Below are positions 1,792 through 23,623 of a DNA stretch of 35,847 nt, one piece after another. The stretch lies in contig JACABE010000020.1 in NCBI GenBank assembly GCA_013377005.1, positions 33,475 through 69,321 on the forward strand, read 5' to 3'. The DNA comes from Bacteroidota bacterium. GTDB lineage: Bacteria; Bacteroidota; Bacteroidia; Bacteroidales; JACABE01. Under the pieces are notes generated by a model. It was not told where the DNA came from. It worked only from the letters and a program-made list of their open reading frames with translations, and made no database searches. Within the stretch, counting starts at the first letter, position 1; the number at the start of each line of letters is the position of its first letter. Position numbers and translations under genes: made by a program.

Positions 1792-1807
1792 TTCATAAGC
1801 AAAAAAT

Positions 1808-1917: not shown

Positions 1918-1942
1918 TTATCCATATTAATTTATTTATAAT

Positions 1943-2302: not shown

Positions 2303-2383
2303 TTGCTAATAGATTTAATACAACCAGCAACGAAACCAACAAAACCAATCACACTTAAAATATTACTTATACTACTACAAAAA

Positions 2384-2581: not shown

Positions 2582-2597
2582 TAAAATAGTTAATAGT

Positions 2598-3068
2598 ATG
2601 TATAAAACAAATTATGATGGTCAGTTAAGATATAAATATGTATCTAGAAATTTTATTCAATCATTAATAATAGAACCTATTGTTTATTGTTTTATTATTA
2701 TTCTCATGTATTTAAGTGTTGGAACAAAGTCAATTTTATATTTTTATTTAATGCTATGTTTTTTGATAGCCTGGTATATTATAGGAATGTATGCTACATA
2801 TAAAATGGTATTAAGACAAAACAGAACTATATGTGAAATAGATTTTATAAACGAAGATATAGTTATTAGAACGGATAAATTACTATGGCTAAAATCAAGA
2901 GAATATAAGGTTGGCAAATCAAAGGTTCAATCAAAAACCAGAACGTTTGAAAATTATGGAAAAAATACGATAAAAGAAGGATTATCAGTTTTTGTAAATA
3001 ATATTGAATTGTATTTAGTAAAGGATTACTTTGATAATTATGAAGATATTATTAAATTACTTACATAA
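2598..3068 (+). CDS. Two-TM membrane protein with possible PH-like domain, copy 2
   Basis: A 156-residue paralogue of the 462-932 product, collinear without gaps. Two TM segments lie at about residues 19-41 and 46-70, followed by a beta-rich soluble part and a closing helix. The stretch from EGLSVF to NYEDII is unchanged from copy 1 and its DNA differs at about one silent base, whereas residues 22-125 differ at roughly half of positions by eye. Such mosaic divergence points to selection on the membrane and proximal soluble part, or to gene conversion of the ends. The specific function is unknown. Confidence 0.75.
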   Translation: MYKTNYDGQLRYKYVSRNFIQSLIIEPIVYCFIIILMYLSVGTKSILYFYLMLCFLIAWYIIGMYATYKMVLRQNRTICEIDFINEDIVIRTDKLLWLKSREYKVGKSKVQSKTRTFENYGKNTIKEGLSVFVNNIELYLVKDYFDNYEDIIKLLT

Positions 3069-3154
3069 ATTCCTGTAATTACCTGCGGATAAGCATTGCA
3101 AATGCAGCTTCGAAGGATTAAATATTATAAAGTTTTAATTTTAAAAAAATAAGT

Positions 3155-3484
3155 ATGCGTAAAATAAAATATAGTTTAGGAATAGTAAGCTTAGTGTTAT
3201 TTGTATATTCTTGTACTAATGTTTGTCAGGAATGGTTAGAAAAACAATTTCGTCCGTTAGAATATAATATGGTTGTTACCGGTAAATATATTGATGTGAA
3301 ATTTTACAAAGCTATTGGACGTGAAGTATCAGGAAAAATAGATACTACTGAAGAATGTGTTTTAAATGAAGACGAATATAAAATTATTGAAATTGGCGAT
3401 ACTTTTCGCAAGGAAAAAGGCAAACTGGATATTTATATTATTAAAAAGGATACAACTTATGTAATTCCTAGTTTTTGCAACTAA
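3155..3484 (+). CDS. Small lipoprotein of the duplicated cassette, copy 2
   Basis: A 109-residue lipoprotein paralogous to 1019-1348. The lipobox ends VYSC (lipid cysteine 20). CQEC of copy 1 is CQEW here, so the third cysteine is not required, while the C-terminal FCN is kept. Changes concentrate around residues 68-80 (EECVLNEDEYK). The 87 bp upstream are nearly identical to copy 1, so expression control is probably shared. Confidence 0.78.
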   Translation: MRKIKYSLGIVSLVLFVYSCTNVCQEWLEKQFRPLEYNMVVTGKYIDVKFYKAIGREVSGKIDTTEECVLNEDEYKIIEIGDTFRKEKGKLDIYIIKKDTTYVIPSFCN

Positions 3485-3544
3485 GTTAAATGAGCACCAT
3501 ATCAATATCATGGGTTTAATTACTAACTTTTAACATCCACTTTT

Positions 3545-3928
3545 ATGAAATATTTATTTTTTAAACTCTGGCAAGATTTTGTTGGTAAAGATAGATTTAA
3601 TAAAGAGTCGAATGCTTTCCCATCTTTAATTTGGTTAATAGTTATTCAATCAACAAATATTGCAAGTTTACAATTATTATTACAGCATTTTTTTAAAATT
3701 AAAGATTTTTTACATACAAAAATTGAGATAAAAATATTTGCAGCATTGCTGTTTATTATAATATTTTTAATTAACTACTATTTTATATATAATAGAAGAA
3801 ATGAAATTTTTGATTTATACATTAATGAAAATAAGAATAAATCAATTATTGGAAAAATAATTTTATACTTATATATGTTAGGTTCTTTTTTTATTATTTA
3901 TTTTATATCAAAGAAAATAAATATTTAA
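3545..3928 (+). CDS. Three-TM small membrane protein, cassette copy 2
   Basis: A 127-residue paralogue of 1408-1791. The last 45 or so residues, including the basic loop RRNEIFDLYINENKNK and the third TM segment, are almost unchanged. Substitutions cluster in TM1 (WLIVIQSTNIASLQ) and TM2 (ALLFIIIFLINYY). The layout and cassette position are the same as in copy 1. The family is not recognised. Confidence 0.75.
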   Translation: MKYLFFKLWQDFVGKDRFNKESNAFPSLIWLIVIQSTNIASLQLLLQHFFKIKDFLHTKIEIKIFAALLFIIIFLINYYFIYNRRNEIFDLYINENKNKSIIGKIILYLYMLGSFFIIYFISKKINI

Positions 3929-7852: not shown

Positions 7853-9739
7853 CTAACTAATGAATGTATAAATTATCAATAAAGCTAAAATCAAACCTGT
7901 AAGTACAGCCAACAAGCCAAATACACGCATGGCAATTTCCCAGATAATCGGAGTGGGTTTATGCACTTCGAAGTCTTTTGTAATGCCTTGTTCTTGATAA
8001 CGCTCCCATTGTTCAGTACGCTCATGTACCATTTCTTCCAAGGTCACCTGACCATTGAAAATAACAAAGTCCATCGGGAACTTCTCGAAACGGAAGTGGG
8101 TGTTGAAGAAATGGATGGTAAAGATGAAACCTACAGCCAACAAAGCCTCATCGGAATGAATAATCGTTGCAATGTTAAAAAACCATCCCGGTAAGAATTT
8201 ACCAAAGAACTCAGGAAACCAAAGAAGTAATCCACTGGATCCAATAACTGCTACTCCCCAGAATACTGCTAAGAAATCAAACTTTTCCCAATAAGTCCAT
8301 TTATCAAATTTAGGTTTTGGTCCACGGAAAAAGAACCAGCGAAACATTGCTTTGATATCACGAAAATCCTTACGATTAGGGAAAAGTGAATCGAAACCAA
8401 AAAGTCGTTGGAAAAAGCTTTGATTTGATATTTTTTTAGAAAATAAAAAGCGGATACTCATCACAAGAGCTACAAATAAGTAGCCAAATGTTATAATGGC
8501 GCATATACGGTGAATAATACCTGCATTGTCGGTTCCACCGTAAAAGTCCATTAAAGCTTTACCCCATTTAGTATTATTAAATTTCAATGGCAGACCTGTT
8601 AAAGCCAATCCAAGGAAACTTGTAACAACAAAAAGGTGCATTACAATATGGTAAGTTTTGAAACGCCTGTAAACTTTCTGTATTTTTTCATTTCTATTAT
8701 CATTAGGTGCAGAATTTGAGAATAATGCAGCATTGCGGGCTTGTTTCTTTTCGATAAAGCCTCGGAATGCCCACAGTAAAGAATGAATCCAGAAAAACAG
8801 AAATACGCTTATCAGCAGAATATTCATGCTAAGAGTAACCCAGAACAGCATTGGAAATTTGTTATGATTGGTGGGCTCTGCATGAGCAATAAACTTTGCA
8901 AACCTATTATTTGCACCTGTGTGACATTGTTTGCAAGTATTGGCTAAGTGAACTGAATTTACAGTTGAATTTGTATCTTTTTCCGGAAGAATATTATGTG
9001 AACTGTGGCAATCAGAGCAGCCGGCAACCTTTTCAGGATAGCCTAATCTTATATTTTTACCATGATAGCTCTCAAAATAAGTTTCCGGTGCAATCGTTGT
9101 CACTTTGTTACGTGCCATCATCTTCGCATCAGCATGACACTTCAAACATGCTTGTGTATGGAATGATCGCCCCTGAGCATCGTTATCAATTTTATTAATG
9201 GCATGAAGACCATGACAGTCAGAGCAAGTAGGAGCATCATTATTTCCTTTAACAAGTGCCTGATAGTGTATCGATTTAAAATAAGCTGATTGTTTCTGAT
9301 GACATTGTCCACATAGCTTGGCGGAAGCTATTTTATCATTTTTAATAGAGGTTATATTATGGATGTCAGCATGGCATTTTGAACATGTAACAGGAAGTCG
9401 TTTACCATTGTGAATACTTTTTTCGTGTTCTTTAACCATTGAATTGTGGCAACTACTACAATCCATCGACTTATAAGAAACAACACATACCTTTTTCCCC
9501 ATTATTTCCTTAGCAAAAGGCTTTTTAGTTTCATCTTTTATGTGACATGCAGTACACATAAGCGAATGATGAACAGAAGTATTATATAAATGAGTAGAAA
9601 TATTTTTTTCGTGACAGCTTATACACTCCGAATTTGATGGAGTGAATATTGAAGAAGTTTGTGCTGTTGCAACCGAAATTACCAATCTAATGATTAGTAA
9701 AAGGCTAATTATTTTGAATGTTGAAGATAATTTATTCAT
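7853..9739 (-). CDS. CbcL-like nonaheme cytochrome c / cytochrome b fusion
   Basis: A 628-residue protein with a signal peptide (cleavage near AQ, residue 26). The periplasmic domain has nine CxxCH heme motifs, at residues 39, 62, 94, 119, 143, 172, 198, 241 and 269. From about residue 297 come TM segments of a formate-dehydrogenase-gamma/HydC-like cytochrome b, with candidate heme-b histidines in YHIVMH, IIHRI, IIHSD and TIHFFNTHF. Nine c-hemes fused to a diheme b domain is the layout of Geobacter CbcL, an inner-membrane quinol dehydrogenase. Here it is the last gene of an operon with an octaheme reductase and YeeE/YedE proteins, so passing menaquinol electrons to the periplasmic octaheme protein is the simplest reading. 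It starts 15 bp after the stop of the upstream gene. Electron flow in the reverse direction cannot be excluded. Confidence 0.85.
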   Translation of the reverse strand: MNKLSSTFKIISLLLIIRLVISVATAQTSSIFTPSNSECISCHEKNISTHLYNTSVHHSLMCTACHIKDETKKPFAKEIMGKKVCVVSYKSMDCSSCHNSMVKEHEKSIHNGKRLPVTCSKCHADIHNITSIKNDKIASAKLCGQCHQKQSAYFKSIHYQALVKGNNDAPTCSDCHGLHAINKIDNDAQGRSFHTQACLKCHADAKMMARNKVTTIAPETYFESYHGKNIRLGYPEKVAGCSDCHSSHNILPEKDTNSTVNSVHLANTCKQCHTGANNRFAKFIAHAEPTNHNKFPMLFWVTLSMNILLISVFLFFWIHSLLWAFRGFIEKKQARNAALFSNSAPNDNRNEKIQKVYRRFKTYHIVMHLFVVTSFLGLALTGLPLKFNNTKWGKALMDFYGGTDNAGIIHRICAIITFGYLFVALVMSIRFLFSKKISNQSFFQRLFGFDSLFPNRKDFRDIKAMFRWFFFRGPKPKFDKWTYWEKFDFLAVFWGVAVIGSSGLLLWFPEFFGKFLPGWFFNIATIIHSDEALLAVGFIFTIHFFNTHFRFEKFPMDFVIFNGQVTLEEMVHERTEQWERYQEQGITKDFEVHKPTPIIWEIAMRVFGLLAVLTGLILALLIIYTFIS

Positions 9740-9754
9740 AAGATTTAATAAAAT

Positions 9755-10951
9755 TTAGCTGCAAAGTCCTCCAGCGCGTTTCTTTGAACCTATTTTGATT
9801 TTGGGTATATATGCGTTTTTTGGGAATAATTGAAGTACTTCTGCCGGAGGAGAAGCAAGATTGATTGCCTTCTCATGAATTTGTTTATCAGCAAAAAGAT
9901 TGTTCCAATTATGTAAACCGTTTTCGAGTATATATAAATTTACTACTCCCTGAACTTTCAGATATTGCCATGCTTTGATGGAGATAGAATCGTTATCAGC
10001 CAATAGCACCACAACACCCTGAGGTGGAAGCTGTGCAAGTGGAGCCACAAACTTTGCATCTAAAAGGTCTTCTATTTTAACATTTTCTGAGCCTTTTAGA
10101 TGAAATATTTCAAAATCTTTGTTCGGGCGTAAATCCAGCGTGATAAGTTTAATTGTTGATTCGCTATTTGTTTTTACATATTCCAATGGATGAATAAATA
10201 CAGCTCTTGTTGCAAGCTGACCAGCATACTTTTTTTCCATAATTTTCCATTTGCGAATCGGATCAGGTTGTCCAACTGACCAAATCAATGCTGCAACAGC
10301 AATTAATATTCCAGCACCATACAGATAAGGACGCTTTGTAATTTTCCATGACCATGTTTTATTTGTGTCTTTAAATTTAAAAAACTCTTCCACTTTTTCA
10401 GCAATGTAAAACATCACTAATGCAAATATTGTAACAATAAATACTGTGGCACCAATTGATAATCCCAACCAATCGGAGACCAGAAAACGGTCGGTGAAAG
10501 AAGAATTCCAGAAATTTTCAAACCCAGGTAAGGATTCCCCAAACAGACCAGCACCTATAATTGTTCCGACTAGAAAGAAAAGTCCATCGATTTTAAAACT
10601 TGCAGTTGCCACAAGCGAAGTTCCGGGACAATAACCACCAACAATGAAGCCAACACCCATAATGAATCCTCCAACAATACCAGGCCATAAGAAAGTTTGG
10701 TTTACGGCAAGTTGAGAGAAATCAAGCAATCCCAATCCTGATGAAAGGAAAATTAAAAGACAAGCAACAAGAATACCTGTAAACATTGTCTTTAAGACTG
10801 TCATATCTTTTAAATAGAATTGAGCGGCAAGCCGACGTGAGTCGCCAAATCCGGCTAATTCTAAAGCAATACCGAAACCGGCACCTATAAGGAAAAACAC
10901 CGCATATCCGCCGGCTTTTCCAAGTTCTGTAATAATATCAACAGGTAACAT
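9755..10951 (-). CDS. YeeE/YedE sulfur transporter fused to rhodanese-like domain
   Basis: A 398-residue protein. Residues 1-230 hold multiple TM segments of the YeeE/YedE (sulfur transport) family, with the conserved GGYCPGTS loop (residues 105-112, Cys108) inside paired pore helices. Residues about 250-355 are a rhodanese-like domain (TLDLRPNKDFEIFHLKGSENV, then NGLHNWNNL). Where the catalytic CxxGxR loop should be it reads LLADNDSIS, with no cysteine, so it cannot form a persulfide in the usual way. The tail ends GGLCS with a cysteine second from the end. YeeE relatives such as TsuA take up thiosulfate through cysteine relays. The gene lies 23 bp after the smaller YedE gene, and the two probably form one transporter. 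The direction and the substrate are inferred. Confidence 0.85.
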   Translation of the reverse strand: MLPVDIITELGKAGGYAVFFLIGAGFGIALELAGFGDSRRLAAQFYLKDMTVLKTMFTGILVACLLIFLSSGLGLLDFSQLAVNQTFLWPGIVGGFIMGVGFIVGGYCPGTSLVATASFKIDGLFFLVGTIIGAGLFGESLPGFENFWNSSFTDRFLVSDWLGLSIGATVFIVTIFALVMFYIAEKVEEFFKFKDTNKTWSWKITKRPYLYGAGILIAVAALIWSVGQPDPIRKWKIMEKKYAGQLATRAVFIHPLEYVKTNSESTIKLITLDLRPNKDFEIFHLKGSENVKIEDLLDAKFVAPLAQLPPQGVVVLLADNDSISIKAWQYLKVQGVVNLYILENGLHNWNNLFADKQIHEKAINLASPPAEVLQLFPKNAYIPKIKIGSKKRAGGLCS

Positions 10952-10974: not shown

Positions 10975-11496
10975 TTAATCAGCCCAAAGATGTCGAACAA
11001 AATATGCAACAGCATAACCTCCTAAAAATACACTGAACATAAATGCCCAGCTTCCCAATGAAAGAACCGCACCCCCTGATAATGCCTGTCCTGATGTACA
11101 ACCACGTGCAAAGCGTGCACCATATCCCATTATTATTCCTCCTAAAAGTGCAAAGAAAAGACGTTGATAGTTTGTTATTTTCGGACCTTTAAATATTTCG
11201 ATTTTCAAACGACCATTTAACCATGCAGAAATCAATCCTCCGGCAAATGTTCCAATTAGGAGAAACAAACTGGGATGATCCAGCGCATTGCGTTCACCTG
11301 CACCCATAGCAGCAAATGTACCGACACGATCAACATGTGATGACCAAACCAATTTTGTAAGTGCAACCTGAATACGACTAATTGCTCCAGAGGCTCCCAA
11401 ACCACTATGAGTTAATGCAAAAGCAGAAAAAAGAACCACACCGAGAATTGTTCCAGCGAAGTAAGGGTTTTTGAATGGTTTTGGTATTTTTTTCAT
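10975..11496 (-). CDS. YeeE/YedE family membrane protein (second half-transporter)
   Basis: A 173-residue membrane protein with about four TM segments. It carries the family motif GYGARFARGCTSGQALSGG followed by LSLGSW; the cysteine in RGCTSG corresponds to the pore cysteine of thiosulfate-transporting relatives. An N-terminal hydrophobic stretch (AGTILGVVLFSAFALTHSG) serves as the first TM. Split YeeE pairs, one short and one long as here, are common in sulfur-metabolising bacteria. Its ATG directly follows the stop of a possible 44-codon ORF (TAGATG), and the octaheme cytochrome gene lies upstream. The family assignment is firm, and the transported sulfur species is not known. Confidence 0.85.
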   Translation of the reverse strand: MKKIPKPFKNPYFAGTILGVVLFSAFALTHSGLGASGAISRIQVALTKLVWSSHVDRVGTFAAMGAGERNALDHPSLFLLIGTFAGGLISAWLNGRLKIEIFKGPKITNYQRLFFALLGGIIMGYGARFARGCTSGQALSGGAVLSLGSWAFMFSVFLGGYAVAYFVRHLWAD

Positions 11497-11655: not shown

Positions 11656-13092
11656 TTATTTCTTTACTACCTGAACAGGATCATGATCATATCCGAGTTC
11701 TTTCCAGTTCAAACGACCTTTAGGAGAATGACATTGTTGACAACTTAGAGCATTCTTTTTAGTGGTGACCATATGGGTAATCGGCCAATACATTTTTGTA
11801 TTCGTAAATCCATATTTGCCACTATATGGTAAACCATTGATTTCTGCTCCTTTCTTTATTGCATAAGCCCAATTGAACTTAGTCCAATAGCCACCTTCTC
11901 CACTTGTTAATGGTGGTAGAATTATGTTATTAACCGGATCATAAGGTTGGTTAGCATGATGTACTTTAAAAGGCCATATTTTAGCCTTGGTATCATTACG
12001 AGAACCTATCGGACGATTCATATAATGTTCAGCTTCTGAGTCGAGTTTGTCTCCAAGAACGTAACGATCCATTTTTCCGGTATACCAGGCGTAGGTAGGA
12101 ACAACATCTTCCTCATAATGGAATTCACCTTTAATCTTCAGGTATTCGTGTGGGCTGTCTTTCCTGTTTGAATCACCTGCTTTCGACCAATCCCAGGTCA
12201 TTTTTGTAGGGAACTTTCTTGCAAACTCAGGAATATGGCAGGTCTGACAGGCTATCCGCACTGCATGCTCATTAAGTCGATGATCTTTATGTGGTTTCTC
12301 TGAATGACAATTCTCACAACCAAAACGAATTGCCTTTGTCTTTTCAGAATAAGTAGTATTTAGTTTACCAGAAACAACATGATTATGCGTTTTATGGCAG
12401 TCAATACATTGAAAATTGAGCTTTCCCATGTGATAATCTAGTTCCTGATTAGCATTCAGTAAAGATTCGTCAAGGTCGCCATGTTTTACACCCATACCTC
12501 CTCCCCCATTGAAATGACAGATGCCACAGTTTTCACGAAAAGGACGGCGAACACTTCCAGCGACTAAACGTAAATCAACATTTTTATTTGGCATACCCAG
12601 TTTTGTTTTTGAATAGGTTCCTGAGCCATCATGACATACGATACAATCGACATTCTCTTCTTTTGTAAAGTCGAAACTCATATCCCCCCAGCCGTAACCG
12701 GCATGACATATTACACAGGAACCCCAATTACCAACTACGCTAATACAAAAGTTATTTATCTGATTTCGCTTTCCAAGAAAAACAGTTTTCCCATTTCGTT
12801 CGACATCACCACTGATCCATGTCCAATGTGCTGTTTGCATTACTTCCTTAGAACTATTCGGATGACATTTAATGCACATACGGGTGACTTTCTGCGGTGA
12901 ATCAATTGAATCTTTGAAATAGGCACTATGATCTAAGTGAGGCAATAAGCGTCCTGTAAGTGGATTTTCAGGTACTTGCCCAAATTCATTATTGGTTTTG
13001 GAGCCATTGTTGCACGAAGTTGCTACTAATATCAATAGTAAAGCTATTCCGACAAGACGAAGCACAAAGTGTAAAAACTTAAAAATTCTCAT
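11656..13092 (-). CDS. Octaheme tetrathionate-reductase-type cytochrome c (lipoprotein)
   Basis: A 478-residue protein with a lipoprotein signal (lipobox VATSC, Cys27) and eight CxxCH motifs at residues 73, 126, 150, 189, 229, 259, 282 and 451. The long gap before the last heme and the MTWDWSKAGD segment are characteristic of the octaheme tetrathionate reductase (OTR, Shewanella SO4144) family. That enzyme reduces tetrathionate, nitrite and hydroxylamine in vitro; its natural substrate is unsettled. As the first gene of an operon with two YeeE/YedE proteins and a CbcL-like quinol dehydrogenase, a sulfur-oxyanion reductase is favoured over a nitrogen role. The protein would be anchored in a membrane facing the periplasm. 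A -7 box lies at 13166-13173. Confidence 0.9.
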   Translation of the reverse strand: MRIFKFLHFVLRLVGIALLLILVATSCNNGSKTNNEFGQVPENPLTGRLLPHLDHSAYFKDSIDSPQKVTRMCIKCHPNSSKEVMQTAHWTWISGDVERNGKTVFLGKRNQINNFCISVVGNWGSCVICHAGYGWGDMSFDFTKEENVDCIVCHDGSGTYSKTKLGMPNKNVDLRLVAGSVRRPFRENCGICHFNGGGGMGVKHGDLDESLLNANQELDYHMGKLNFQCIDCHKTHNHVVSGKLNTTYSEKTKAIRFGCENCHSEKPHKDHRLNEHAVRIACQTCHIPEFARKFPTKMTWDWSKAGDSNRKDSPHEYLKIKGEFHYEEDVVPTYAWYTGKMDRYVLGDKLDSEAEHYMNRPIGSRNDTKAKIWPFKVHHANQPYDPVNNIILPPLTSGEGGYWTKFNWAYAIKKGAEINGLPYSGKYGFTNTKMYWPITHMVTTKKNALSCQQCHSPKGRLNWKELGYDHDPVQVVKK

Positions 13093-13287: not shown

Positions 13288-13968
13288 ATGGACAAGACTA
13301 TCTGTCAGTTATGCAAATCAAAATCATCTGCTGCACAAAAACTTAGTGAAGCTGAATTATGTATGCTTGGTGAAAATTGCGCTGAAACTTATTTCCAACC
13401 CGGTGATATTATTATCAAACAAGACGCACATTCAACCAATGTGGCTTATCTTAAATCCGGTTTGGTTAAGATTCATTTTGATGGAACTATTAAAGATAAA
13501 ATCATTAAAATAACAAAAGCTCCAGCCTATCTTTGTCTTCCAAGTAATTTTGGTGATAAAATAAATCATTTCTCAGCAACTGCACTCGAGCCGACTACTG
13601 TTTGTTTTATTAATGTGAATATGTTTAAAAAGTTAATTTATGAAAATGGGGATTTTGCTTATCAGATTATATTAGATATGAGTAAAAACGAACTTCAGAA
13701 TTTTCATAATTGCCTTAACAATGCCCAAAAACAAAACATTGGGAAAGTTGCAGATGTTATTTTGTTTTTTGCCAATACAATTTATAATTCCATTACTTTC
13801 AGATTACCGGTTACCAGAGAGGAGTTAGCTGCTTTAGCTGGTATCACTCGCGAAAGTTGCAGCCGTATATTTACAGAATTTAACAATGATAAAATTCTGG
13901 AAGTAAATGGCCGTCATATAAAAATTTTAAACGAAAAACTTCTCAGACAGATAAGCGAAAAGGGTTAG
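13288..13968 (+). CDS. Crp/Fnr family regulator, cysteine-rich N-terminus
   Basis: A 226-residue protein. The N-terminus carries Cys6, Cys9, Cys25 and Cys31, recalling the cluster-ligating cysteines of FNR, although the spacing differs. A cyclic-nucleotide-binding-like beta barrel follows (residues about 30-120, YFQPGDIIIKQ), then a dimer helix and a winged helix (LPVTREELAALAGITRESCSRIF). The recognition helix has E-x-x-S-R (ESCSR), the residue set FNR uses to read TTGA-type half-sites. It is divergent from the octaheme operon with a 195-bp shared control region, so it very probably regulates it. Sensing of oxygen, NO or reactive sulfur through the cysteines is inferred. Confidence 0.88.
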   Translation: MDKTICQLCKSKSSAAQKLSEAELCMLGENCAETYFQPGDIIIKQDAHSTNVAYLKSGLVKIHFDGTIKDKIIKITKAPAYLCLPSNFGDKINHFSATALEPTTVCFINVNMFKKLIYENGDFAYQIILDMSKNELQNFHNCLNNAQKQNIGKVADVILFFANTIYNSITFRLPVTREELAALAGITRESCSRIFTEFNNDKILEVNGRHIKILNEKLLRQISEKG

Positions 13969-15125: not shown

Positions 15126-15506
15126 CTATTCCGTTTTGGCAGCATTTCTACAACCATTTCCATTGCCTTGCCCACATCCATGACTGTGTTGAAAACCGTT
15201 TCCATTTCCATTTCCACTGCAATTTCCATTTCCTTTACCACCTCTTTTGCAATTTTTTCCTTTGTTATCGCAAATGCCATCTCCATTTTTATCAACAAAA
15301 TTTGCACCTTTGCCAGTTTTCATTTTAGTTTCGCGATTGTCACAAACACCATTATTATTTTTATCAGTAAACTGACCAGGACTTGCTTTGGTTTGTTCTG
15401 TTTTAACCGTAGCTTTGTCGGTTTTTTCCTGTGTTTGTGCCAATAAATTATTCGTTGTTAATGCAAAAGCGAATAATACCACTGTTAGCATAATTAATTT
15501 TTTCAT
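15126..15506 (-). CDS. Secreted small protein with DxNxDGxCD repeats and Gly/Asn-rich tail
   Basis: A 126-residue protein with a signal peptide (cleavage near LLAQ, residue 24). Two copies of F-(T/V)-D-K-N-N/G-(N/D)-G-(V/I)-C-D-N (about residues 46-57 and 69-80) look like EF-hand or dockerin-type calcium loops carrying a cysteine. The tail is low complexity (GNGNGNG) with CSG, HSHGCG and GCRN that may hold metal. It probably binds a cation in the periplasm or outside. Such D-x-N-x-D-G-x-C-D proteins recur in Bacteroidetes, but their role is not established. The gene stands alone with a strong terminator. Confidence 0.75.
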   Translation of the reverse strand: MKKLIMLTVVLFAFALTTNNLLAQTQEKTDKATVKTEQTKASPGQFTDKNNNGVCDNRETKMKTGKGANFVDKNGDGICDNKGKNCKRGGKGNGNCSGNGNGNGFQHSHGCGQGNGNGCRNAAKTE

Positions 15507-15664: not shown

Positions 15665-16360
15665 CTATCCCTTCCTGCTTATCTCATTTAAAGTATTATA
15701 ATCTATTAGTTGTATATCCTTTTCATGAAGTGCTATTAAATTATCTTTTTCAAAAGATTTTAGCAATTTAACTGCGCTTTCAGTTGATATTCCAGCAAAA
15801 TCAGCAATATCTTTACGGGAAAGCAACTGAAATATTTCAGGTGTCTGATTTTTAAGACTGTCTAAATATAATAAAGTATCTGCAATACGTCCGTTCATTT
15901 GTTTATACGTCATATTCCTCAAAGTATCGAAAAGGTTTACATTTTGCTCACAATACCTTTTTATAATATTAAATCCAAACATTCCATTTTGTTGTACAAT
16001 ATTTGCTATTGATACTTTTTCAATCAAATACACCTGACAATCAGTGATTGCAACCGAAGAATAATTGAATTTATTTTTTGTAAATACGGCTGAAAGACCC
16101 ACAAATTCGCCTGGTTTAATAATCCTAAGATTTAAGCTCTTTGAACTGTCACCCTCAATGTATTGTTTTGCCAATCCAGTAATAACAAACAAAACATAAG
16201 AAGCGAATGCTCCCTGTTTGGTCAGATTATCTCCTTTACGGAAGGAAACCTGTGTTTTTGCTGCTCTAATCAGTTCAACTTCTTCAGGTGATAACATCTG
16301 AAAACATGGAGCATTAATGTTGCAAATAAAGTCTTGGTCAGTTTCGAGTATAGTTTTCAT
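15665..16360 (-). CDS. Crp/Fnr family regulator (second)
   Basis: A 231-residue regulator with an N-terminal effector barrel (about residues 20-130, FRKGDNLTKQGAFASYVLFV), a dimer helix and a winged helix (LSRKDIADFAGISTESAVKLL). The recognition helix reads S-T-E-S-A-V-K and lacks the E-x-x-S-R set, so its DNA site should differ from that of the regulator at 13288. Cys13 and Cys19 lie near the N-terminus. It is divergent from the thiol/sulfur redox operon starting at 16538, with a 177-bp control region between, making it the likely regulator of that operon. Confidence 0.87.
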   Translation of the reverse strand: MKTILETDQDFICNINAPCFQMLSPEEVELIRAAKTQVSFRKGDNLTKQGAFASYVLFVITGLAKQYIEGDSSKSLNLRIIKPGEFVGLSAVFTKNKFNYSSVAITDCQVYLIEKVSIANIVQQNGMFGFNIIKRYCEQNVNLFDTLRNMTYKQMNGRIADTLLYLDSLKNQTPEIFQLLSRKDIADFAGISTESAVKLLKSFEKDNLIALHEKDIQLIDYNTLNEISRKG

Positions 16361-16393: not shown

Positions 16394-16444
16394 ATTAAAA
16401 TCAACATAAGAATGTTTTAAATCAATAAATAAGTTGTTTTATTT

Positions 16445-16458
16445 CAAGCATAAGCTTG
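16445..16458. promoter_or_regulatory. Candidate Crp/Fnr-type site CAAGC-N4-GCTTG
   Basis: CAAGCATAAGCTTG has 5-bp perfect arms with a 4-bp spacer, the geometry of Crp/Fnr operators. Its centre lies about 55 bp upstream of the TACTTTTG -7 box, close to a class I activator position, in the control region shared with the second Crp/Fnr gene. Confidence 0.4.
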
Positions 16459-16502: not shown

Positions 16503-16510
16503 TACTTTTG
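16503..16510 (+). promoter_or_regulatory. -7 box of thiol/sulfur redox operon
   Basis: TACTTTTG matches TAnnTTTG and lies 28 bp before the ATG at 16538. It overlaps a possible TTG start at 16508, which argues against that longer reading. Confidence 0.6.
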
Positions 16511-16537: not shown

Positions 16538-16894
16538 ATGTTGTACACTAATTTAAAACACATAGAAACATCTGCTAATCACGCTAAAATTATCAGTGAA
16601 AATAAAAATGTTATGGTAATTTGTGGACGAATGGACCCTATGTGTATTCCTGTTTACCAAATAGCAGAAGAAATAGAGAATGAATATTCTCATGTTCAGT
16701 TTTATGATATGGAATTTGACAATCCTGAATCTAATGTAATTCGTAGTTTACCCGAAGTAGAAGGATTTATGGGAATTCCATTTACTATTTATTATAAAAA
16801 TGGCAAAGTTGCAAAAGCAACTTCAAGTATACAAACTAAAGAAGTAATAAAAAATATATTAGATAAAGAATATGCTTTAACAGTAGAAGTATAA
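16538..16894 (+). CDS. Thioredoxin-fold protein with single active-site cysteine
   Basis: A 118-residue protein with the thioredoxin pattern: a strand (NVMVICG), an active-site loop (RMDPMCIPVYQIAEEIENEY), a strand (VQFYDMEFDNPE) and a cis-Pro region (GIPFTIYYKNGKVAKA). Where thioredoxin has WCGPC the loop reads DPMC, so only the second cysteine position is filled. An extra Cys lies just before the loop (ICGR). It may act as a monothiol carrier of persulfide or as a binding protein rather than a disulfide reductase. It is the first gene of the redox operon. The ATG at 16538 is preferred over TTG 16508, which sits in the promoter. Confidence 0.8.
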   Translation: MLYTNLKHIETSANHAKIISENKNVMVICGRMDPMCIPVYQIAEEIENEYSHVQFYDMEFDNPESNVIRSLPEVEGFMGIPFTIYYKNGKVAKATSSIQTKEVIKNILDKEYALTVEV

Positions 16895-16916
16895 ATTATT
16901 TTTTCAAAGTTTTATT

Positions 16917-17328
16917 ATGAATGAAAAACAGATTTATGTTGAATTTGTAAGTCCTTTTGATGTGGGAACAACAATAGAGAAACTTACAGCAGCTTCTATC
17001 CAAAAAGAATGGATGAAATATGATGTTCATAATCTTCAGCAATCCATTGCAAAATCAGGAAAAGAAATGAAGACCCATACAAGTTATAGAGATTTGTAAA
17101 CCTGATTACTCTGGTTATATGCTGGAGAAAGATAACGAAAGGATAGCTTCAATAATCATGATGCCATGTAGGATTTCTGTTTATGAGAAAGAAGATGGTA
17201 AAACCTATATTTCCTTATTAAATATGGCAGCAATGATAACAGGATTGTCAGAATCAGCTGATAAAGTTATACGTGAAGCTTCAAAAGAAACCTTTGAAAT
17301 TGTAGAATCTATTATAGGAACAATTTAA
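16917..17328 (+). pseudogene. DUF302 family protein, frameshifted
   Basis: Two frames together make one DUF302 protein of about 136 residues. The first (16917-17099) begins MNEKQIYVEFVSPFDVGTTIE and runs off at THTSYRDL. Removing one base near 17073 continues it as KPIQVIEICKPDYSGYMLE into the second frame, which carries the family core IIMMPCRISVYE. The joined pattern (Cys in ICKPD, MPCRISVYE) is normal for DUF302, whose members accompany sulfur and redox operons and bind small ligands or metals of unknown identity. It is either a sequence error or a true inactivation. Two further frameshifts follow in the next two genes. Confidence 0.75.
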
Positions 17329-17351
17329 ACTTTTTATTAAATATCATTAAA

Positions 17352-18520
17352 ATGAAAAAAAAGTATTAATCTTAGGTGGAGGATTTGCAGGAATACAAAC
17401 CGCCATTGAATTACAGAAACAAGGTAAGTTTGACATTACTTTGGTTTCGGATAGAGATTATTTATACATCTATCCGATTTCAATTTGGATTCCTTTTCAT
17501 ATTAAGAATTTTGACGATGTTAAAGTGCCTTTGGCAGATATTCAAAAGAAATATAAATTCAATGTAATTATTGATAAGGTTATAGAAATTCATGCTTTTG
17601 AAAATAAAGTTATTTGCGAAAAACAAACAATTTCTTTTGATTATTTAGTAGTTGCAATTGGTGCAGAGAAAATGCAACATAAAGGTATTTCTAATACTTT
17701 ATCTATTTGCGGGAAACCCGAAATGGCTGTTTCTATCCGAAATAAAATGGATGAATTAATTGCTAAAGGGAGTGGTAAAATAGCTATTGGCTTTGGTGGA
17801 AATCCCAAAGATAAATCAGCTGTTCGTGGTGGTCCTGCTTTTGAATTAATATTTAATATTCATAACTTTCTAAAAAAGAAAAAGCTTAGAGATAAGTTTG
17901 AACTAACCTTTTTTGCTCCTATGGAAGAACCCGGAGCGAGGATGGGTAAAGCTTCATTGGCAATGCTGGATACTATGTTTACAAAATATAATATTAATAA
18001 ACATTTTGGTAAAAAGATAAAAGAATTTATAGCCGATGGAGTTATTTTTGAAGATGATTCAAAGCTAGATGCCGACTTTACTATGTTTATCCCTGCTGCC
18101 AATGGTCACAGATCTTTGAATAATTCAGATTTACCTTTATCAGAAGGTGGTTTTATTAATATTGACGACACAGGTCTTGTTAATGGATTTACTAATGTTT
18201 TTGCAATTGGAGATATTGCAGCATTGCAAGGGCCTGAATGGGTTGCAAAGCAAGGTCATATTGCAGAAATAATGGGTAGAAATGCAGCTTTTAATATCAC
18301 AGAAATAGAAAAAGACAGTAGTATCAGAAAAGGTTATCAAGAGCATTTAAGCATATTATGCGTTATGGATACAGGTGATGGTGCAGCTTTTGTTTTTAGA
18401 AATACTAAAAAAGCAATTATGATTCCTTTACCTTTTGTTGGGCATTGGATGAAAAAGGGATGGGGTGTATATTCAAAATTAACTAAATTAGGTAAATTCC
18501 CACGGTTACCGGGAATGTAA
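17352..18520 (+). pseudogene. Sulfide:quinone oxidoreductase-like flavoprotein, 5-prime frameshift
   Basis: The intact frame gives V-L-I-L-G-G-G-F-A-G-I-Q-T-A (FAD dinucleotide-binding motif), DYLVVAIGAE, and the second FAD segment TNVFAIGDIAAL, over about 385 residues. These match the sulfide:quinone oxidoreductase/NADH dehydrogenase flavoprotein superfamily. The amphipathic C-terminus (HWMKKGWGVYSKLTKLG) fits membrane docking. Cysteines occur at SICGKPE and ILCVMDTGD, but the full three-cysteine SQR set is not obvious. The ATG at 17352 is followed by eight A residues and then a stop in its own frame; loss of two A or gain of one restores the flavoprotein. No alternative start lies before the FAD motif. 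It probably passes electrons from a sulfur compound to quinone. Confidence 0.75.
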
Positions 18521-18584
18521 ATATTTTTAATCTATATTATAATTTCATTAAAAAATAAATTTCAAATCAATATTATTTATCAAA

Positions 18585-19078
18585 ATGCGAAAAGTTTTAA
18601 AAGTACTTGTTGACAAAAGATTTGCAATACTAGCAGTTTCCGGGGCTACTCTATATTTTGTAATAACTCAATATCATATCTCACTTTGGTGGTGCAGTTC
18701 AGTATTGTAAGCGGGCTTATATTTGGTAAAGTATTCTGCCGTTGGGTGTGTCCAATGGGATTGATTATGAAAATAATGATGAGCTTGAATAAAGATGGTA
18801 AGATAAAACAGATGTATCAATACCATAAATTAGGATGTCCTATTGCATGGGTTTCAGATTGGTTAAACAAGTTTTCATTATTCAAAATAAAACTTAATAC
18901 AGATAGTTGCTTGAGTTGTGGTGCATGTGATAAGAAATGCTATATAGTTGCTATGGAACCTGCAAAATACAGTTTGTATAAACCAGCAACAGAAAAGCCT
19001 GGTAATAGTTATACTTGTTCCAAATGTTTGGAATGTGTAGCGGTTTGTCCAAATGGCAGTTTAACTTACAAAGTTTAA
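18585..19078 (+). pseudogene. NapH-like membrane 4Fe-4S ferredoxin, frameshifted
   Basis: ATG at 18585 opens MRKVLKVLVDKRFAILAVSG, a TM start, but hits a stop at TTG TAA near 18707. A one-base shift at about 18670-18690 continues as VVQFSIVSGLIFGKVFCRWVCPMG. The motif CRWVCPMG is that of NapH/CcoG-type membrane ferredoxins. Two 4Fe-4S motifs follow: CLSCGACDKKC and CSKCLECVAVCP. The joined protein of about 164 residues would exchange electrons with menaquinol at the inner membrane. With the flavoprotein upstream it suggests a quinone-linked electron module. This is the third frameshift in a row. Confidence 0.72.
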
Positions 19079-19096
19079 CATTTAAACACAAAGAAA

Positions 19097-19396
19097 ATGA
19101 AAGCTAATTTTAATACAATAATAAACGAAAACAAACCAGTAATTGTAGATTTCCATGCTGTATGGTGCGGTCCATGTAAAACTCAATCTCCTATTTTAAA
19201 AGAAATAGCTTCAGAACTTGGCGATAAAGTTAAAGTAATTAAAATAGACGTTGATGAGAATAGAGAAATAGCAAGCCGTTATCAAATTCAGAGTGTGCCT
19301 ACAATAATGATTTTTAAAAATGGGAATGTTATTTACAAACAACCTGGTGTACACTCAAAAACTCAATTAATGAATATTATAAACAATAATCTATAA
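19097..19396 (+). CDS. trxA: Thioredoxin, cytoplasmic
   Basis: A 99-residue canonical thioredoxin: FHAVWCGPCKTQSPIL holds the WCGPC active site (Cys24, Cys27) and SVPTIM the cis-proline. It has no signal peptide, so it is cytoplasmic. It begins 19 bp after the ferredoxin gene. A rhodanese-thioredoxin fusion with a signal peptide follows 13 bp downstream, so the cluster holds both a cytoplasmic and an exported thioredoxin. A role in reducing persulfides or disulfides made by the sulfur pathway is inferred from this context. Confidence 0.93.
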   Translation: MKANFNTIINENKPVIVDFHAVWCGPCKTQSPILKEIASELGDKVKVIKIDVDENREIASRYQIQSVPTIMIFKNGNVIYKQPGVHSKTQLMNIINNNL

Positions 19397-19408
19397 ATAA
19401 AAAAAACA

Positions 19409-20137
19409 ATGAAAAGAATTCAAAAAATAAGAAGTAACAAATCAATTTCCCTATTATTTTTATCAATATCATTAATAATTGGATTAAATTCATTTGGACA
19501 GAATTTAAATCCTGCTGACTTTCAGAAAAAGATGAATGAATTGACCAAAGCTCCAATAATAGATGTACGTACTCCAAATGAGTTCAATCAAGGTCATCTA
19601 AAAAATGCAATTAATATAAATATCAATGATGTTAATTTCTCCAATCTCATTAATAAACTGGATAAAAATAAGCCTGTATTTGTATATTGTTTAAGCGGTG
19701 CCAGAAGCACAAATGCTCTTAATCAAATGCACAATCAAGGATTTAATGTTATATACAATCTAGCAGGTGGAATGATGAAATGGCGTGCAGCCGGATTGCC
19801 TGAAACAACTGTAAATACAACGGCAAAAGCTGAAATGAGTCTTACTCAATTCAACAAAATGACTAATACAGATAAGATAGTTGTTGTTGATTACTATGCT
19901 GAATGGTGTGCACCATGCAAAAAACAAGCTCCAATTTTAAAAGAAATTGAAGCTGAAATGAAGGATAAAGTGACAATATTAAAAATAGATGTCGATCAAA
20001 ACAAGGAGATTGTAAGAATAAATAAAATTACTAGTGTACCAACAATACTGATTTATAAAGGTACTAAAGTTTTACACAAAAAACAAGGAGCACTAACAAA
20101 AGCTGAATTAATGAAAATAATTAATAAGAATCTTTAA
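19409..20137 (+). CDS. Exported rhodanese-thioredoxin fusion protein
   Basis: A 242-residue protein with an N-terminal signal (hydrophobic core LLFLSISLIIGLNSF, about residues 15-29, then GQ). The rhodanese domain (about 33-130) has IDVRTPNEFNQGHL and the active loop YCLSGARS (Cys94). The thioredoxin domain (about 145-242) has WCAPC (Cys167, Cys170) and SVPTIL. Fusing a persulfide-forming domain to a disulfide reductase suggests sulfane sulfur is bound at Cys94 and released or relayed by the thioredoxin half, in the periplasm. The thioredoxin half resembles the adjacent trxA product (KEI and KIDVD blocks), hinting at local duplication. Confidence 0.9.
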   Translation: MKRIQKIRSNKSISLLFLSISLIIGLNSFGQNLNPADFQKKMNELTKAPIIDVRTPNEFNQGHLKNAINININDVNFSNLINKLDKNKPVFVYCLSGARSTNALNQMHNQGFNVIYNLAGGMMKWRAAGLPETTVNTTAKAEMSLTQFNKMTNTDKIVVVDYYAEWCAPCKKQAPILKEIEAEMKDKVTILKIDVDQNKEIVRINKITSVPTILIYKGTKVLHKKQGALTKAELMKIINKNL

Positions 20138-20148
20138 ATAAATACAAA

Positions 20149-20334
20149 ATGGCTTTAACAATTAGTCCTATGTCATGCCCTCAAAATCATCGTTGTCCAC
20201 TTTTACAGGTTTGCAATGTTGGGGCAATTTCTCAGAACAGTTATGGTTTACCTGTAATTGATGAGGAAAAATGTATTGAATGTGGCAAATGTATTAAGTA
20301 CTGCCCAACAAGAGCAGTGCAGATAAAAAATTAA
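20149..20334 (+). CDS. 4Fe-4S ferredoxin with unusual first cysteine set
   Basis: A 61-residue protein. The C-terminal motif CIECGKCIKYCPTRAV (Cys42, 45, 48, 52) binds one 4Fe-4S cluster. The N-terminal part has CPQNHRCPLLQVCNVGAI (Cys10, 16, 22) with C-x5-C-x5-C spacing and N in place of the usual P after the last Cys, so a second cluster may be complete, partial or of another type. It starts 12 bp after the rhodanese-thioredoxin gene and ends 7 bp before the DUF1847 gene, a tight operon. It is likely the soluble electron carrier of the cluster. Confidence 0.88.
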   Translation: MALTISPMSCPQNHRCPLLQVCNVGAISQNSYGLPVIDEEKCIECGKCIKYCPTRAVQIKN

Positions 20335-20340
20335 AAATAA

Positions 20341-20805
20341 ATGGAAGACAAAATATTGTACAATAGTTCTGATATTGAAGTGATGAAAATAGCCGAAAAT
20401 GCACTTTCAATGGGTAAAGACAGAATTGTTGAAATTAGGAATTATGCTAAGTTAGCAGGTTTTAAACGAATTGGAATTGCTAACTGTATTTCTTTACAGA
20501 AAGAAACCTATCAACTAAAAGAAATGCTATCCGACGATTTTGAAGTTTATACTATTGATTGCAGATGTGGCAGGTTACCAGCAAACGAGTTTTTAGGTGA
20601 TGATGCAAAAGGAGTAATGTGCAATCCTGCCGGGCAGGCTAAGTATTTGGAAGAAAATAATACAGAACTCAACATTGTGATGGGCTTATGTATTGGTCAT
20701 GACATGATGTTTACATCTAAATCAATAGCGCCTTCTACTACTTTAATTGTCAAAGATAGAAAACACAAATACAATCCTATAGAGATTTTTAATAACTTAA
20801 AATAA
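20341..20805 (+). CDS. DUF1847 family metal-binding protein
   Basis: A 154-residue protein with the DUF1847 pattern: IGIANCISL, a CRCGRLP segment, VMCNPAGQAKYLEE, NIVMGLCIGHDMMF and IVKDRKHKYNP. The spread cysteines (CRCG, MCNP, GLCIGHD with a His) look like a metal or Fe-S site. The family occurs in anaerobes and is functionally uncharacterised. It lies 6 bp after the ferredoxin gene and is the last member of the operon. Family N-terminal cysteines that are sometimes on the same chain appear here on the adjoining ferredoxin, so the two proteins may act together. Confidence 0.85.
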   Translation: MEDKILYNSSDIEVMKIAENALSMGKDRIVEIRNYAKLAGFKRIGIANCISLQKETYQLKEMLSDDFEVYTIDCRCGRLPANEFLGDDAKGVMCNPAGQAKYLEENNTELNIVMGLCIGHDMMFTSKSIAPSTTLIVKDRKHKYNPIEIFNNLK

Positions 20806-21100: not shown

Positions 21101-21700
21101 ATGAGTGAATTTGATGCTCGTGCCCGTGAATGGGACAAAGACCAGATACATATAGAACGTTCAGCTGCCATAGCTGCTGAACTTCAGAAAATGATACCTC
21201 TTAGACCTTCAATGAGAGCAATGGAATATGGTGCAGGTACTGCAATTCTTAGTTTTCTGTTGAAAGATAAGTTTAAGGAAATTACCCTGATGGATAATTC
21301 CAGAGAAATGATCAAGGTTTGTGAAGAAAAAACCGAGTTTTATCAAACAAGTCACATTTTTCCACTTTGGTTTGACCTTGAACATAATGATTTTGAAGGT
21401 AAATTTGACATTGTTTACAATCAAATGGTATTGCATCATGTAAAGGATATTGAGTTTATTCTGAAGAAATTTTACACCATGCTGAATCAGGGAGGATACC
21501 TCGCAATAGCCGACTTATACCCCGAAGATGGCTCATTTCATGGTGTTGATGTTGATGTACATTTAGGTTTTGATCCTGAAAATATTAGTAAAATTCTAAA
21601 AAGAATTGGGTTTATTGAAATTGAATACAAAACTTGTTTTCAAATAAAACGGGATAATGGCAAAGTTTATTCCATTTTCTTATTAACAGCAAAAAAATAA
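21101..21700 (+). CDS. Class I SAM-dependent methyltransferase
   Basis: A 199-residue protein with a methyltransferase (UbiE/SmtA-like) fold: motif I AMEYGAGTAILSF, acidic loop ITLMDNSREMI, motif II FDIVYNQMVLHHV, and GGYLAIADLYPEDGSFH. It has no TM segment or signal. The substrate is unknown. It lies downstream of the sulfur redox operon and 30 bp upstream of the LysR gene on the same strand. A thiol or small-metabolite methylating role fits the setting but is not shown. Confidence 0.88.
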   Translation: MSEFDARAREWDKDQIHIERSAAIAAELQKMIPLRPSMRAMEYGAGTAILSFLLKDKFKEITLMDNSREMIKVCEEKTEFYQTSHIFPLWFDLEHNDFEGKFDIVYNQMVLHHVKDIEFILKKFYTMLNQGGYLAIADLYPEDGSFHGVDVDVHLGFDPENISKILKRIGFIEIEYKTCFQIKRDNGKVYSIFLLTAKK

Positions 21701-22624: not shown

Positions 22625-22651
22625 TTATCGGGTATCAATTTTTATGATTTG

Positions 22652-22672
22652 ACTGCTATTTGCTTTAGCAGT
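22652..22672. promoter_or_regulatory. Operator in yeiH promoter: ACTGCTA-N7-TAGCAGT
   Basis: A perfect 7-bp inverted repeat with a 7-bp spacer. It contains a T-N11-A core of the LysR type. It fills the spacer between TTG (22649-22651) and the -7 box TACGTTTG (22672-22679). A protein bound here would overlap RNA polymerase, and the LysR protein encoded just upstream is the natural candidate. Confidence 0.6.
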
Positions 22673-22679
22673 ACGTTTG
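22672..22679 (+). promoter_or_regulatory. -7 box of yeiH-type gene
   Basis: TACGTTTG matches TAnnTTTG with TTG 20 bp upstream (22649-22651), the expected spacing. It fixes the start of the next gene downstream at 22700. Confidence 0.6.
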
Positions 22680-22699
22680 CATTTTTAAATTATCTAAAA

Positions 22700-23623
22700 A
22701 TGCAAACATCAAAAATAATTTACATTGCAGCCATTATATCTTGCACACTTCCTTTTGTTGATACTCCTATTGCTTTATTCATTGGGATTATACTGGCACA
22801 AACCGTACAACATCCATTTCCAAAAATAAGTAAAAAACTTACTCATATTTTATTACAAGTTTCAGTAGTTGGTTTAGGATTTGGGATGAATACATGGGAA
22901 GCTTTTGATGCTGGAAAACAAGGACTTGTGTTTACCATTTTTTCTATCACAATAACAATGATAATGGGTTTATCTATAGGTAAACGTTTAAAAATAGAAA
23001 AAAATACATCCTACCTTATATCATCAGGAACAGCTATTTGCGGAGGAAGCGCTATAGCTGCCATTTCATCAATTATAAAATCAAACGAAAAACAAATTTC
23101 AACAGCATTGGGTACTGTTTTTATTCTGAATTCTGTTGCATTGTTCTTATTCCCATGGTTGGGGCATTTGCTGCATTTATCACAATATCAATTTGGTGTC
23201 TGGGCTGCCATTGCCATTCACGATACAAGTTCGGTAGTGGGTGCAGCCAGTAAATATGGAGCCGAAGCCTTACAAATAGCTACAACCATAAAACTCGAAA
23301 GAGCATTGTGGATTATTCCACTCGCTTTTGTCTCAATGTTTATTTTTAAAACCGAGTCAAAAAAAATTAAAATCCCTTGGTTCATCTTTTTATTTGTAAT
23401 GGCAATGCTCATGAATACATTTATACCAGCCATACAAACCGAAACAAAGTATATTGTGATGCTGGCAAAAATCGGATTGAAAATTACACTTTTTCTGATT
23501 GGCTCAGGTCTTTCAAAAGAACTCATTGTATCGGTAGGTATAAAACCCTTTTTGCAAGGAGTACTAATCTGGACTTTTATTTCAATACTATCCCTGATAG
23601 TTATTCTGACAACTATTGTGTAA
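22700..23623 (+). CDS. yeiH: YeiH/UPF0324 family putative sulfate/sulfonate exporter
   Basis: About 307 residues, roughly ten TM segments. Family landmarks are SVVGLGFGMN, the GTAICGGSAIAA loop, IAIHDTSSVVGAA and KIGLKITLFLIGSGLS. Members have been proposed to export sulfate or sulfite-related anions and often follow a LysR gene, as here. I start it at 22700 because the promoter lies inside the longer reading from 22649. It converges with the lipoprotein gene, with 7 bp between stops. Confidence 0.88.
   Translation: MQTSKIIYIAAIISCTLPFVDTPIALFIGIILAQTVQHPFPKISKKLTHILLQVSVVGLGFGMNTWEAFDAGKQGLVFTIFSITITMIMGLSIGKRLKIEKNTSYLISSGTAICGGSAIAAISSIIKSNEKQISTALGTVFILNSVALFLFPWLGHLLHLSQYQFGVWAAIAIHDTSSVVGAASKYGAEALQIATTIKLERALWIIPLAFVSMFIFKTESKKIKIPWFIFLFVMAMLMNTFIPAIQTETKYIVMLAKIGLKITLFLIGSGLSKELIVSVGIKPFLQGVLIWTFISILSLIVILTTIV

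Follow-up and report, generated by a model that had tools for sequence, protein, structure and literature searches.

Among described sulfide:quinone oxidoreductases (SQRs), the type VI enzymes show an unusual pattern: the passages of PMC9666304 on TrSqrF give C121 and C332 as its cysteines, one C-terminal helix instead of two, and V331, I333, F366 and W369 as its quinone residues. As far as the occurrence data in PMC4584964 go, type VI SQRs are found in all sequenced Sulfurimonas but one and, as CT1087, in C. tepidum, in connection with high sulfide. In the anaerobic Bacteroidota, the passages of PMC6158253 on Bacteroides fragilis describe thiol genes controlled by BmoR (CoADR-Rhd-TusA-DsrE and DoxDA-TrxP). 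Here, we analysed a stretch of 35,847 nucleotides from a Bacteroidota bacterium (GenBank assembly GCA_013377005.1, contig JACABE010000020.1), hereafter the window (G000:C13:33475-69321, where G000 is the window's genome of 3.69 Mb in 92 contigs). At 16538-20805 it carries an island of eight plus-strand genes with intergenic gaps of 6-64 nt, to which a divergent Crp/Fnr gene with an FNR-type box belongs. We propose, at a probability of roughly 0.56, that this island is an FNR-type-regulated module handling sulfide and sulfane sulfur. This figure takes into account that the link to an octaheme cytochrome is thin outside the window's family. The proposal builds on the observed gene content, its recurrence, a shared promoter box, a flavoprotein in which an SQR fold is combined with cysteines in a type VI-like pattern, and an exchange of the island's middle between relatives.

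A preliminary description of this DNA had the eight genes right in their order and strand, and domain searches support the labels that it had assigned to the seven genes after trxL, the NapH-like one as a membrane Fe-S protein, although it had overlooked one-base frame breaks in three neighbouring genes. The parts are known or named families, except trxL; the arrangement is new, while its parts are mostly known. The B. fragilis set resembles the island in an exported thioredoxin and a rhodanese-flavoprotein (PMC6158253, in the same passages), whereas a MarR type of regulator and the DoxDA quinone enzyme set it apart. The genes and the regulatory elements are as follows:

16538..16894, plus strand: trxL, a thioredoxin-fold protein with a CGRM...MC motif and invariant C29, without a canonical CxxC
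16917..17328, plus strand: DUF302 gene, with a frame break in this assembly located at about 17065-17104
17352..18520, plus strand: SQR-like flavin adenine dinucleotide (FAD) protein with a type VI (SqrF)-like pattern, readable frame used from 17360
18585..19078, plus strand: NapH-like small membrane Fe-S protein with Fer4_5 and two 4Fe-4S motifs, frame broken near 18690
19097..19396, plus strand: cytoplasmic thioredoxin with CGPC
19409..20137, plus strand: rhodanese-thioredoxin with a signal-like N terminus (by eye), C94 in a CLSGAR loop and CAPC in the thioredoxin domain
20149..20334, plus strand: small ferredoxin of 61 residues with 7 cysteines, a rare partner in other loci
20341..20805, plus strand: short form of DUF1847 with four family-invariant cysteines (C49, C74, C94 and C117)
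15665..16360, minus strand: divergent Crp/Fnr-type regulator, C19 invariant in 18/18 aligned orthologues
16434..16447, no strand: FNR-type box TTGTTTTATTTCAA, TTG-N8-CAA, between the Crp gene and trxL

The flavoprotein carries a Pyr_redox_2 domain and has an SQR fold with an N-terminal FAD-binding Rossmann motif. Among solved proteins, Aquifex SQR was matched at 104 bits, followed by type II NADH dehydrogenases at 47-56 bits; the top eleven Foldseek matches were likewise SQRs (template modelling (TM) scores of 0.85-0.88), with type II NADH dehydrogenases next at about 0.78. Although the latter belong to the same superfamily and form the second-best group, SQRs outscore them in both searches, and the two invariant cysteines of the flavoprotein fit an SQR. 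These matches uphold its earlier designation as a quinone-linked flavoprotein. Two cysteines, C117 and C334, and no others are invariant across the 43 aligned SQR members (43/43), and they align with the cysteines of SICT and SAICIADFG in Aquifex SQR. In fold and overall sequence the protein resembles the type I enzymes of Aquifex aeolicus and Acidithiobacillus, but it departs from the type I pattern in having R156, invariant in 43/43, at the position of the cysteine in SCFGPAYE, which is a further catalytic cysteine of type I SQR. The predicted structure, with a predicted local distance difference test score of 93.9 for the model, ends in a single C-terminal helix (361-376), as in type VI. 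L333 and V335 flank C334, and W368 and Y371, at +34 and +37 from C334, are invariant in 43/43; compared with the quinone residues of TrSqrF, these four have equal spacing and character, whereas the residues themselves differ.

The family also includes Sulfurimonas and Sulfurovum members, which fits the type VI occurrence given in PMC4584964. Taken together, an SQR fold, a C-terminal domain that is short and has a single helix, and cysteines matching in position the two of TrSqrF suggest that the flavoprotein is a type VI-like SQR, the equivalence of C117/C334 to C121/C332 being by position and published description, not alignment. Apolar and aromatic residues may likewise line its quinone site. 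Unlike the type VI references, Thiocapsa TrSqrF and C. tepidum CT1087, which were compared by description, it sits in a thioredoxin/NapH-like/DUF302 island in Bacteroidota, so that a type VI-like SQR is now placed in an operon-like island of this phylum. We considered whether R156 in place of the Aquifex cysteine takes the protein out of the SQRs, and rejected this, since PMC9666304, in its passages on the enzyme, names C121 and C332 as the working cysteines; that type VI SQR does without the third cysteine is our own inference from that paper.

A scan of GTDB gave 257 SQR relatives, of which the best 80 were used as loci and the other 177 lay outside the sample. We kept the 57 of the 80 loci whose flanking sequence covered 8 kb or more out of 12 kb, and 23 were dropped for short flanks; by record title, 50 are of Bacteroidota type (including Ignavibacteria), six are Campylobacterota, and L148 falls in neither group. 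The 50 loci are not all separate genomes, as L081 and L082 come from one metagenome-assembled genome and L095 and L104 from another. Six partner classes (trxL, DUF302, NapH-like, thioredoxin, rhodanese or CoADR, and DUF1847) were counted within 6 kb of the SQR, and 53 overlapping 13.2-kb windows from G000 and its order-mate G043 only served as the control. At least one class was present in 47/50 loci and at least three in 30/50; L147, L151 and L154 had none. The control gave 0/53 for every class except Crp (1), and the grouping exceeds chance. Counts over the 50 loci were thioredoxin 39, trxL 23, thioredoxin reductase 23, CoADR-rhodanese 22, NapH-like 19, Crp 19, DUF1847 18, radical SAM 16, YgaP-type transmembrane protein 14, DUF302 12, ArsM-like methyltransferase 11, rhodanese 6, methyltransferase 5, YeeE 4, NifX-like 3, hotdog 3, one each for octaheme cytochrome, ferredoxin, LysR and YeiH, and 0 for the cytochrome b-c fusion. 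The preliminary description had named a lack of recurrence in other genomes as what would speak against it; instead, the grouping recurs widely, in the window's own genus, and partly twice in its own genome. The exact set of eight as a unit was seen in no other locus, and 0/50 loci had all six classes. The soluble ferredoxin, also counted in that set, was rejected as a recurrent part at 1/50 loci, a count obtained with a 61-residue query of poor sensitivity.

An orthologue-level SQR match was found in two of the 58 other genomes nearest G000, namely G043 (75%) and G053 (53-56%, as two segments). Across 395 genomes of the phylum, a profile search detected the SQR family in 44 at E up to 1e-60, and 39 of these belong to family f73, with genomes of 2-3 Mb. 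In the tree, one branch with support 99/98 parts 21 island-labelled SQRs (of 43 rows) from the labelled others; ten rows are unlabelled, among them L147, L151 and L132, and L129 is labelled as island though DUF1847 is its sole partner class and its SQR is identical to the unlabelled L065. A literature search for sulfide:quinone enzymes clustered with thioredoxin and rhodanese genes in Bacteroidetes found no paper, nor was a description of the island found in the open literature searched, most subscription literature lying outside that search.

We then compared the window's family, comprising G000 and the drafts G001-G004 of 50-780 contigs. The outer frame of the island, which comprises the octaheme operon, Crp and trxL at one end and the genes from NapH-like to DUF1847 at the other, is kept between close relatives (G000, G001, G002 and G004) while its middle is exchanged, and SQR with DUF302 is the cassette in the window's genome. 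The far end (NapH-like, thioredoxin, rhodanese-thioredoxin and DUF1847) is kept in G001, in G002 without a separate thioredoxin being called, and in G004 as far as the contigs show, where DUF1847 is found on a separate contig and has a YeiH relative after it. The middle is DUF302-SQR in G000; thioredoxin reductase-thioredoxin-YgaP-TonB receptor-DUF4249 in G001 and G002 (DUF4249 by Pfam in G002 only); and thioredoxin-ArsM-like-radical SAM-thioredoxin/thioredoxin reductase-DUF302 in G004. No orthologue-level SQR was found in G001-G004, the best listed matches having 23-36% identity; the SQR is an exchangeable cassette and not the fixed centre of the set. A chassis with an exchangeable middle is a warning against inferring function from a single genome.

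A second, partly paralogous and partial cluster lies elsewhere in the same genome on G000:C43 (L202 2623-11046), in the order trxL-thioredoxin-YgaP-TonB-type receptor-lipoprotein-DUF6132-like-ArsM-like-radical SAM-thioredoxin/thioredoxin reductase-DUF302, which is close to that of G003. Its receptor, lipoprotein and DUF6132-like protein were named by likeness to L231 and L075 proteins, its thioredoxin-thioredoxin reductase fusion is 89% identical to L080, and its DUF302 gene is whole. The TonB receptor of the exchangeable cassette is in two frames in G001 (L230 9511-11799) and whole in G002. A radical SAM/SPASM-type protein (L121:5285-6718 and relatives), whose best NCBIfam match reaches 133 of 525 bits, recurs beside the ArsM-like methyltransferase and the thioredoxin-thioredoxin reductase fusion.

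The neighbouring genes of the window include a minus-strand operon of an octaheme cytochrome, two YeeE-type proteins and a cytochrome fusion:

11656..13092, minus strand: cytochrome with 8 CxxCH, assigned to the octaheme tetrathionate reductase family
10975..11496, minus strand: YeeE/YedE-type sulfur transport protein
9755..10951, minus strand: YeeE/YedE-type protein with a C-terminal rhodanese domain
7853..9739, minus strand: fusion of a cytochrome c carrying nine CxxCH with a membrane domain resembling cytochrome b561
13288..13968, plus strand: second Crp/Fnr-type regulator, divergent from the octaheme operon
21101..21700, plus strand: S-adenosylmethionine methyltransferase, recurring beside DUF1847/NapH-like genes in some loci
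22649..23623, plus strand: YeiH-family (PF03601) membrane protein, with a relative also 3' of DUF1847 in G004

This operon adjoins Crp-trxL in four of the five family genomes (G000, G001, G002 and G004); G003 has trxL and no octaheme match. The cytochrome belongs to the octaheme tetrathionate reductase family, at 547 bits against TIGR04315 (cut-off 375) and with all eight CxxCH, but differs from it in being paired with two YeeE-type proteins and the b561-multihaem fusion. Outside the window's family, octaheme and YeeE genes stand near the SQR only in L093 and L104 of the 80 loci; L147 shows a looser form of this arrangement that includes a NifX-like gene.

Regulation was considered from the Crp/Fnr gene, which in the window is divergent from trxL. 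TTG-N8-CAA was present in 20/25 regions upstream of Crp (19/24 distinct contigs, as L031 and L085 are one contig), compared with 2-8/25 for alternative spacings, while 500 Markov controls averaged 5.8 and peaked at 12 of 25; the spacing had been spotted by eye in part of the same promoters before it was counted, and was thus chosen on the counted data. The 25 regions do not all face trxL: in L077 the Crp gene is downstream of the cluster, and in L078, L088, L090, L095, L104 and L118 another gene comes first. The box is missing in L077, L088, L090, L095 and L104. A free palindrome search of the promoters gave no clear excess over shuffles. We take the TTG-N8-CAA spacing to be that of an FNR box, and TAnnTTTG at 16503-16510 is presumably the Bacteroidetes promoter element. 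In the regulator, C19 is the sole invariant cysteine.

In the module that we propose, a membrane-bound type VI-like SQR would oxidise excess sulfide to zero-valent sulfur and pass the electrons to menaquinone. The thioredoxins, the rhodanese and probably trxL and DUF302 would hold or pass the sulfur as persulfide and re-reduce it, and the exported rhodanese-thioredoxin would handle persulfide in the same way outside. In the window's family, the adjoining octaheme cytochrome/YeeE operon may reduce and import oxidised sulfur species, for example tetrathionate or thiosulfate. Partners of the persulfide type support this proposal, with thioredoxin in 39, thioredoxin reductase in 23 and CoADR-rhodanese in 22 of the 50 loci. 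We infer the substrate, the direction of flow and the carriers, as well as the roles of DUF302, DUF1847, trxL, the NapH-like protein and the ferredoxin.

Several observations weigh against this proposal. It is built from sequence and model data. In the draft genomes G001-G004, trxL and a large part of the island persist although no orthologue-level SQR was found there; therefore, the shared function cannot be sulfide oxidation alone, and a wider one of sulfane-sulfur and thiol handling is indicated. In the Campylobacterota relatives the SQR is present and every partner is at 0/6. Other cassettes, with an ArsM-like methyltransferase, radical SAM protein, TonB receptor, TehA-like protein or TerC, are unexplained by sulfide handling. 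The octaheme cytochrome is within 6 kb of the SQR in 1/50 loci and YeeE in 4/50, and the cytochrome scores over its cut-off in 15/59 relatives, 12 of them without this SQR, on which count a tie between the octaheme operon and the SQR was rejected. The passages of PMC11129491 on sulfide-tolerant anaerobes report no sulfide oxidation in culture, so that tolerance need not mean oxidation. Finally, three central genes are frame-broken in this assembly, and this copy may not work.

The DUF302 gene is split into 16917-17099 and a second frame running to 17328, the ATG of the SQR-like gene at 17352 is out of phase with the body by one base at an A8 run, and a one-base frame change near 18690 divides the NapH-like gene. 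Assembly error, recent decay or slippage on the A8 run may each be the cause. Relatives of these genes are largely intact: the SQR is an uninterrupted open reading frame of 371-409 residues in 70/80 loci (the other 10 are cut by contig ends or interrupted, two causes pooled), DUF302-class and NapH-class open reading frames occur in 21 and 28 loci, respectively, and G001, G002 and G004 carry an unbroken NapH-like gene. A first composition-based frameshift scan of the window and 20 regions of G000 detected none of the window's breaks, and a second found only the SQR break, at the loosest setting and together with four other calls in the window; having missed most of the breaks, the scans give no error rate. 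Decay of the middle of the island in the window's genome, with DUF302, SQR and NapH-like genes as pseudogenes, is possible, though we would not expect it, and lies on a separate axis that is compatible with any functional reading in relatives. Three one-base breaks fall in three adjoining genes within about 1.7 kb, whereas eleven flanking window genes differ from those of G001 by 0-9 residues in length, and a whole DUF302 copy exists on C43. Set against this, the frames are otherwise open and conserved (the SQR is 80% identical to L075), so that decay would have to be very recent, and the A8 run and a local assembly error are equally good causes.

Among the functional alternatives, a dedicated sulfide-to-persulfide relay is doubtful. 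Here the SQR would give zero-valent sulfur to a protein acceptor without releasing polysulfide, C19 of the Crp/Fnr regulator would sense persulfide, and the middle would be a slot for lineage-specific enzymes on a shared thiol chassis. The acceptor could be trxL, with its one invariant cysteine as the persulfide carrier, or DUF302, with its conserved cysteine, and defined candidates for the sulfur acceptor of such an SQR are now at hand.

Detoxification of metalloid or chalcogen oxyanions (arsenic, selenium or tellurium) appears unlikely as the island's function. Thioredoxin and its reductase would give the reductant, methyltransferases and transporters would clear the product, and the SQR would be a passenger. 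The ArsM-like methyltransferase in 11/50 and the radical SAM protein in 16/50 loci, with the thioredoxin-thioredoxin reductase fusion and again on G000:C43, are in line with such a function. So are two further finds: the loci of G041 and G058 encode TehA-like (SLAC1) proteins, and that of G031 encodes TerC. However, the ArsM-like protein reaches 193.5 bits where the arsenite methyltransferase cut-off is 263, the window copy has none of the ArsM-like, radical SAM, TehA-like and TerC genes, the 50 loci more often hold thiol and sulfur partners, and the window's cytochrome fusion reaches only about 23 of 200 bits against ExtN/ExtO.

A reductive direction, in which electrons from quinol or NADH reduce polysulfide or persulfide to sulfide as an aid to sulfur respiration, with the SQR running in reverse or acting as a persulfide reductase, is improbable to a similar degree. 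Electron transfer from quinol to polysulfide is energetically uphill. CoADR-rhodanese, the counterpart of NADH-dependent persulfide reductase, is a frequent neighbour, as counted above, and the octaheme cytochrome operon adjoins the island in the window's family, but the window's genome itself holds only weak matches to CoADR-rhodanese. While PMC7969121 proposes that the NADH-dependent enzyme serves sulfur respiration, the type VI enzymes described in the corresponding parts of PMC9666304 and PMC4584964 oxidise sulfide. A general defence of an anaerobe against oxidative or thiol stress, in which sulfur compounds play an incidental part, is the least probable: in B. fragilis, a CoADR-rhodanese-TusA-DsrE protein, DoxDA and an exported thioredoxin come under joint control on oxygen exposure, according to the passages of PMC6158253 on these genes, and an FNR-type box is present, but no peroxidase or superoxide enzyme was recognised, mostly by eye, in the 45 most frequent neighbour clusters apart from an OsmC-like protein in 7 loci, and the SQR and YeeE-type proteins point to sulfur.

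The other proteins of the island were examined individually. trxL had no Pfam match, and its predicted structure is a thioredoxin fold; C29 is invariant in 24/24, while four members (L105, L112, L115 and L123) lack the second cysteine, C36, and the earlier label 'monothiol' is about right. With 20.6 of 96.8 bits against TIGR01068 and no CxxC, it is not a canonical thioredoxin. It occurs in 21/59 nearest genomes (including G000-G004) and in 20/395 of the phylum, and is commoner than the SQR among near genomes. The DUF302 protein scores 29.6 bits against PF03625 (Pfam gathering cut-off 23) on its C-terminal fragment, its solved relatives 1j3m and 1q9u were deposited as hypothetical or uncharacterised, and its cysteine is kept in all alignment rows covering that site; in the passage of PMC5037610 that mentions it, DUF302 stands next to sox genes in Acidithiobacillia with its function unknown. 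DUF1847 scores 120 bits against PF08901 (cut-off 25) and occurs in 14/59 nearest genomes, and its four cysteines are invariant in 14/14; no solved relative was found at E up to 0.1 and no paper in a literature search on the family. DUF302, DUF1847 and the unnamed monothiol thioredoxin family thereby gain a firm thiol/sulfur context and a shared promoter signal.

The window's NapH-like fragment lies under the NapH-family cut-offs of TIGR02163 and PRK09477 (44 of 213 and 33 of 234 bits; profiles 255 and 286 long). Three whole relatives of 162-165 residues reach 35-42 of 213 bits and match only the last third of the 255-position profile, and the cross-membrane electron transfer formerly suggested for the gene set is not borne out for the NapH-like protein.

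At L069, from an f73 genome, the SQR homologue likewise has DUF1847 about 8 kb from it and a related methyltransferase next to it (1770-2447 and 9312-9980). Between the two Crp genes of the window, a small, exported-looking, Gly/Asn/Lys-rich protein at 15126-15506 is 84% conserved in G001. At 462-3928, two paralogous pairs seen by eye (462-932/2598-3068 and 1408-1791/3545-3928) suggest a duplication of roughly 2.1 kb where the GC content is low (0.22-0.27).

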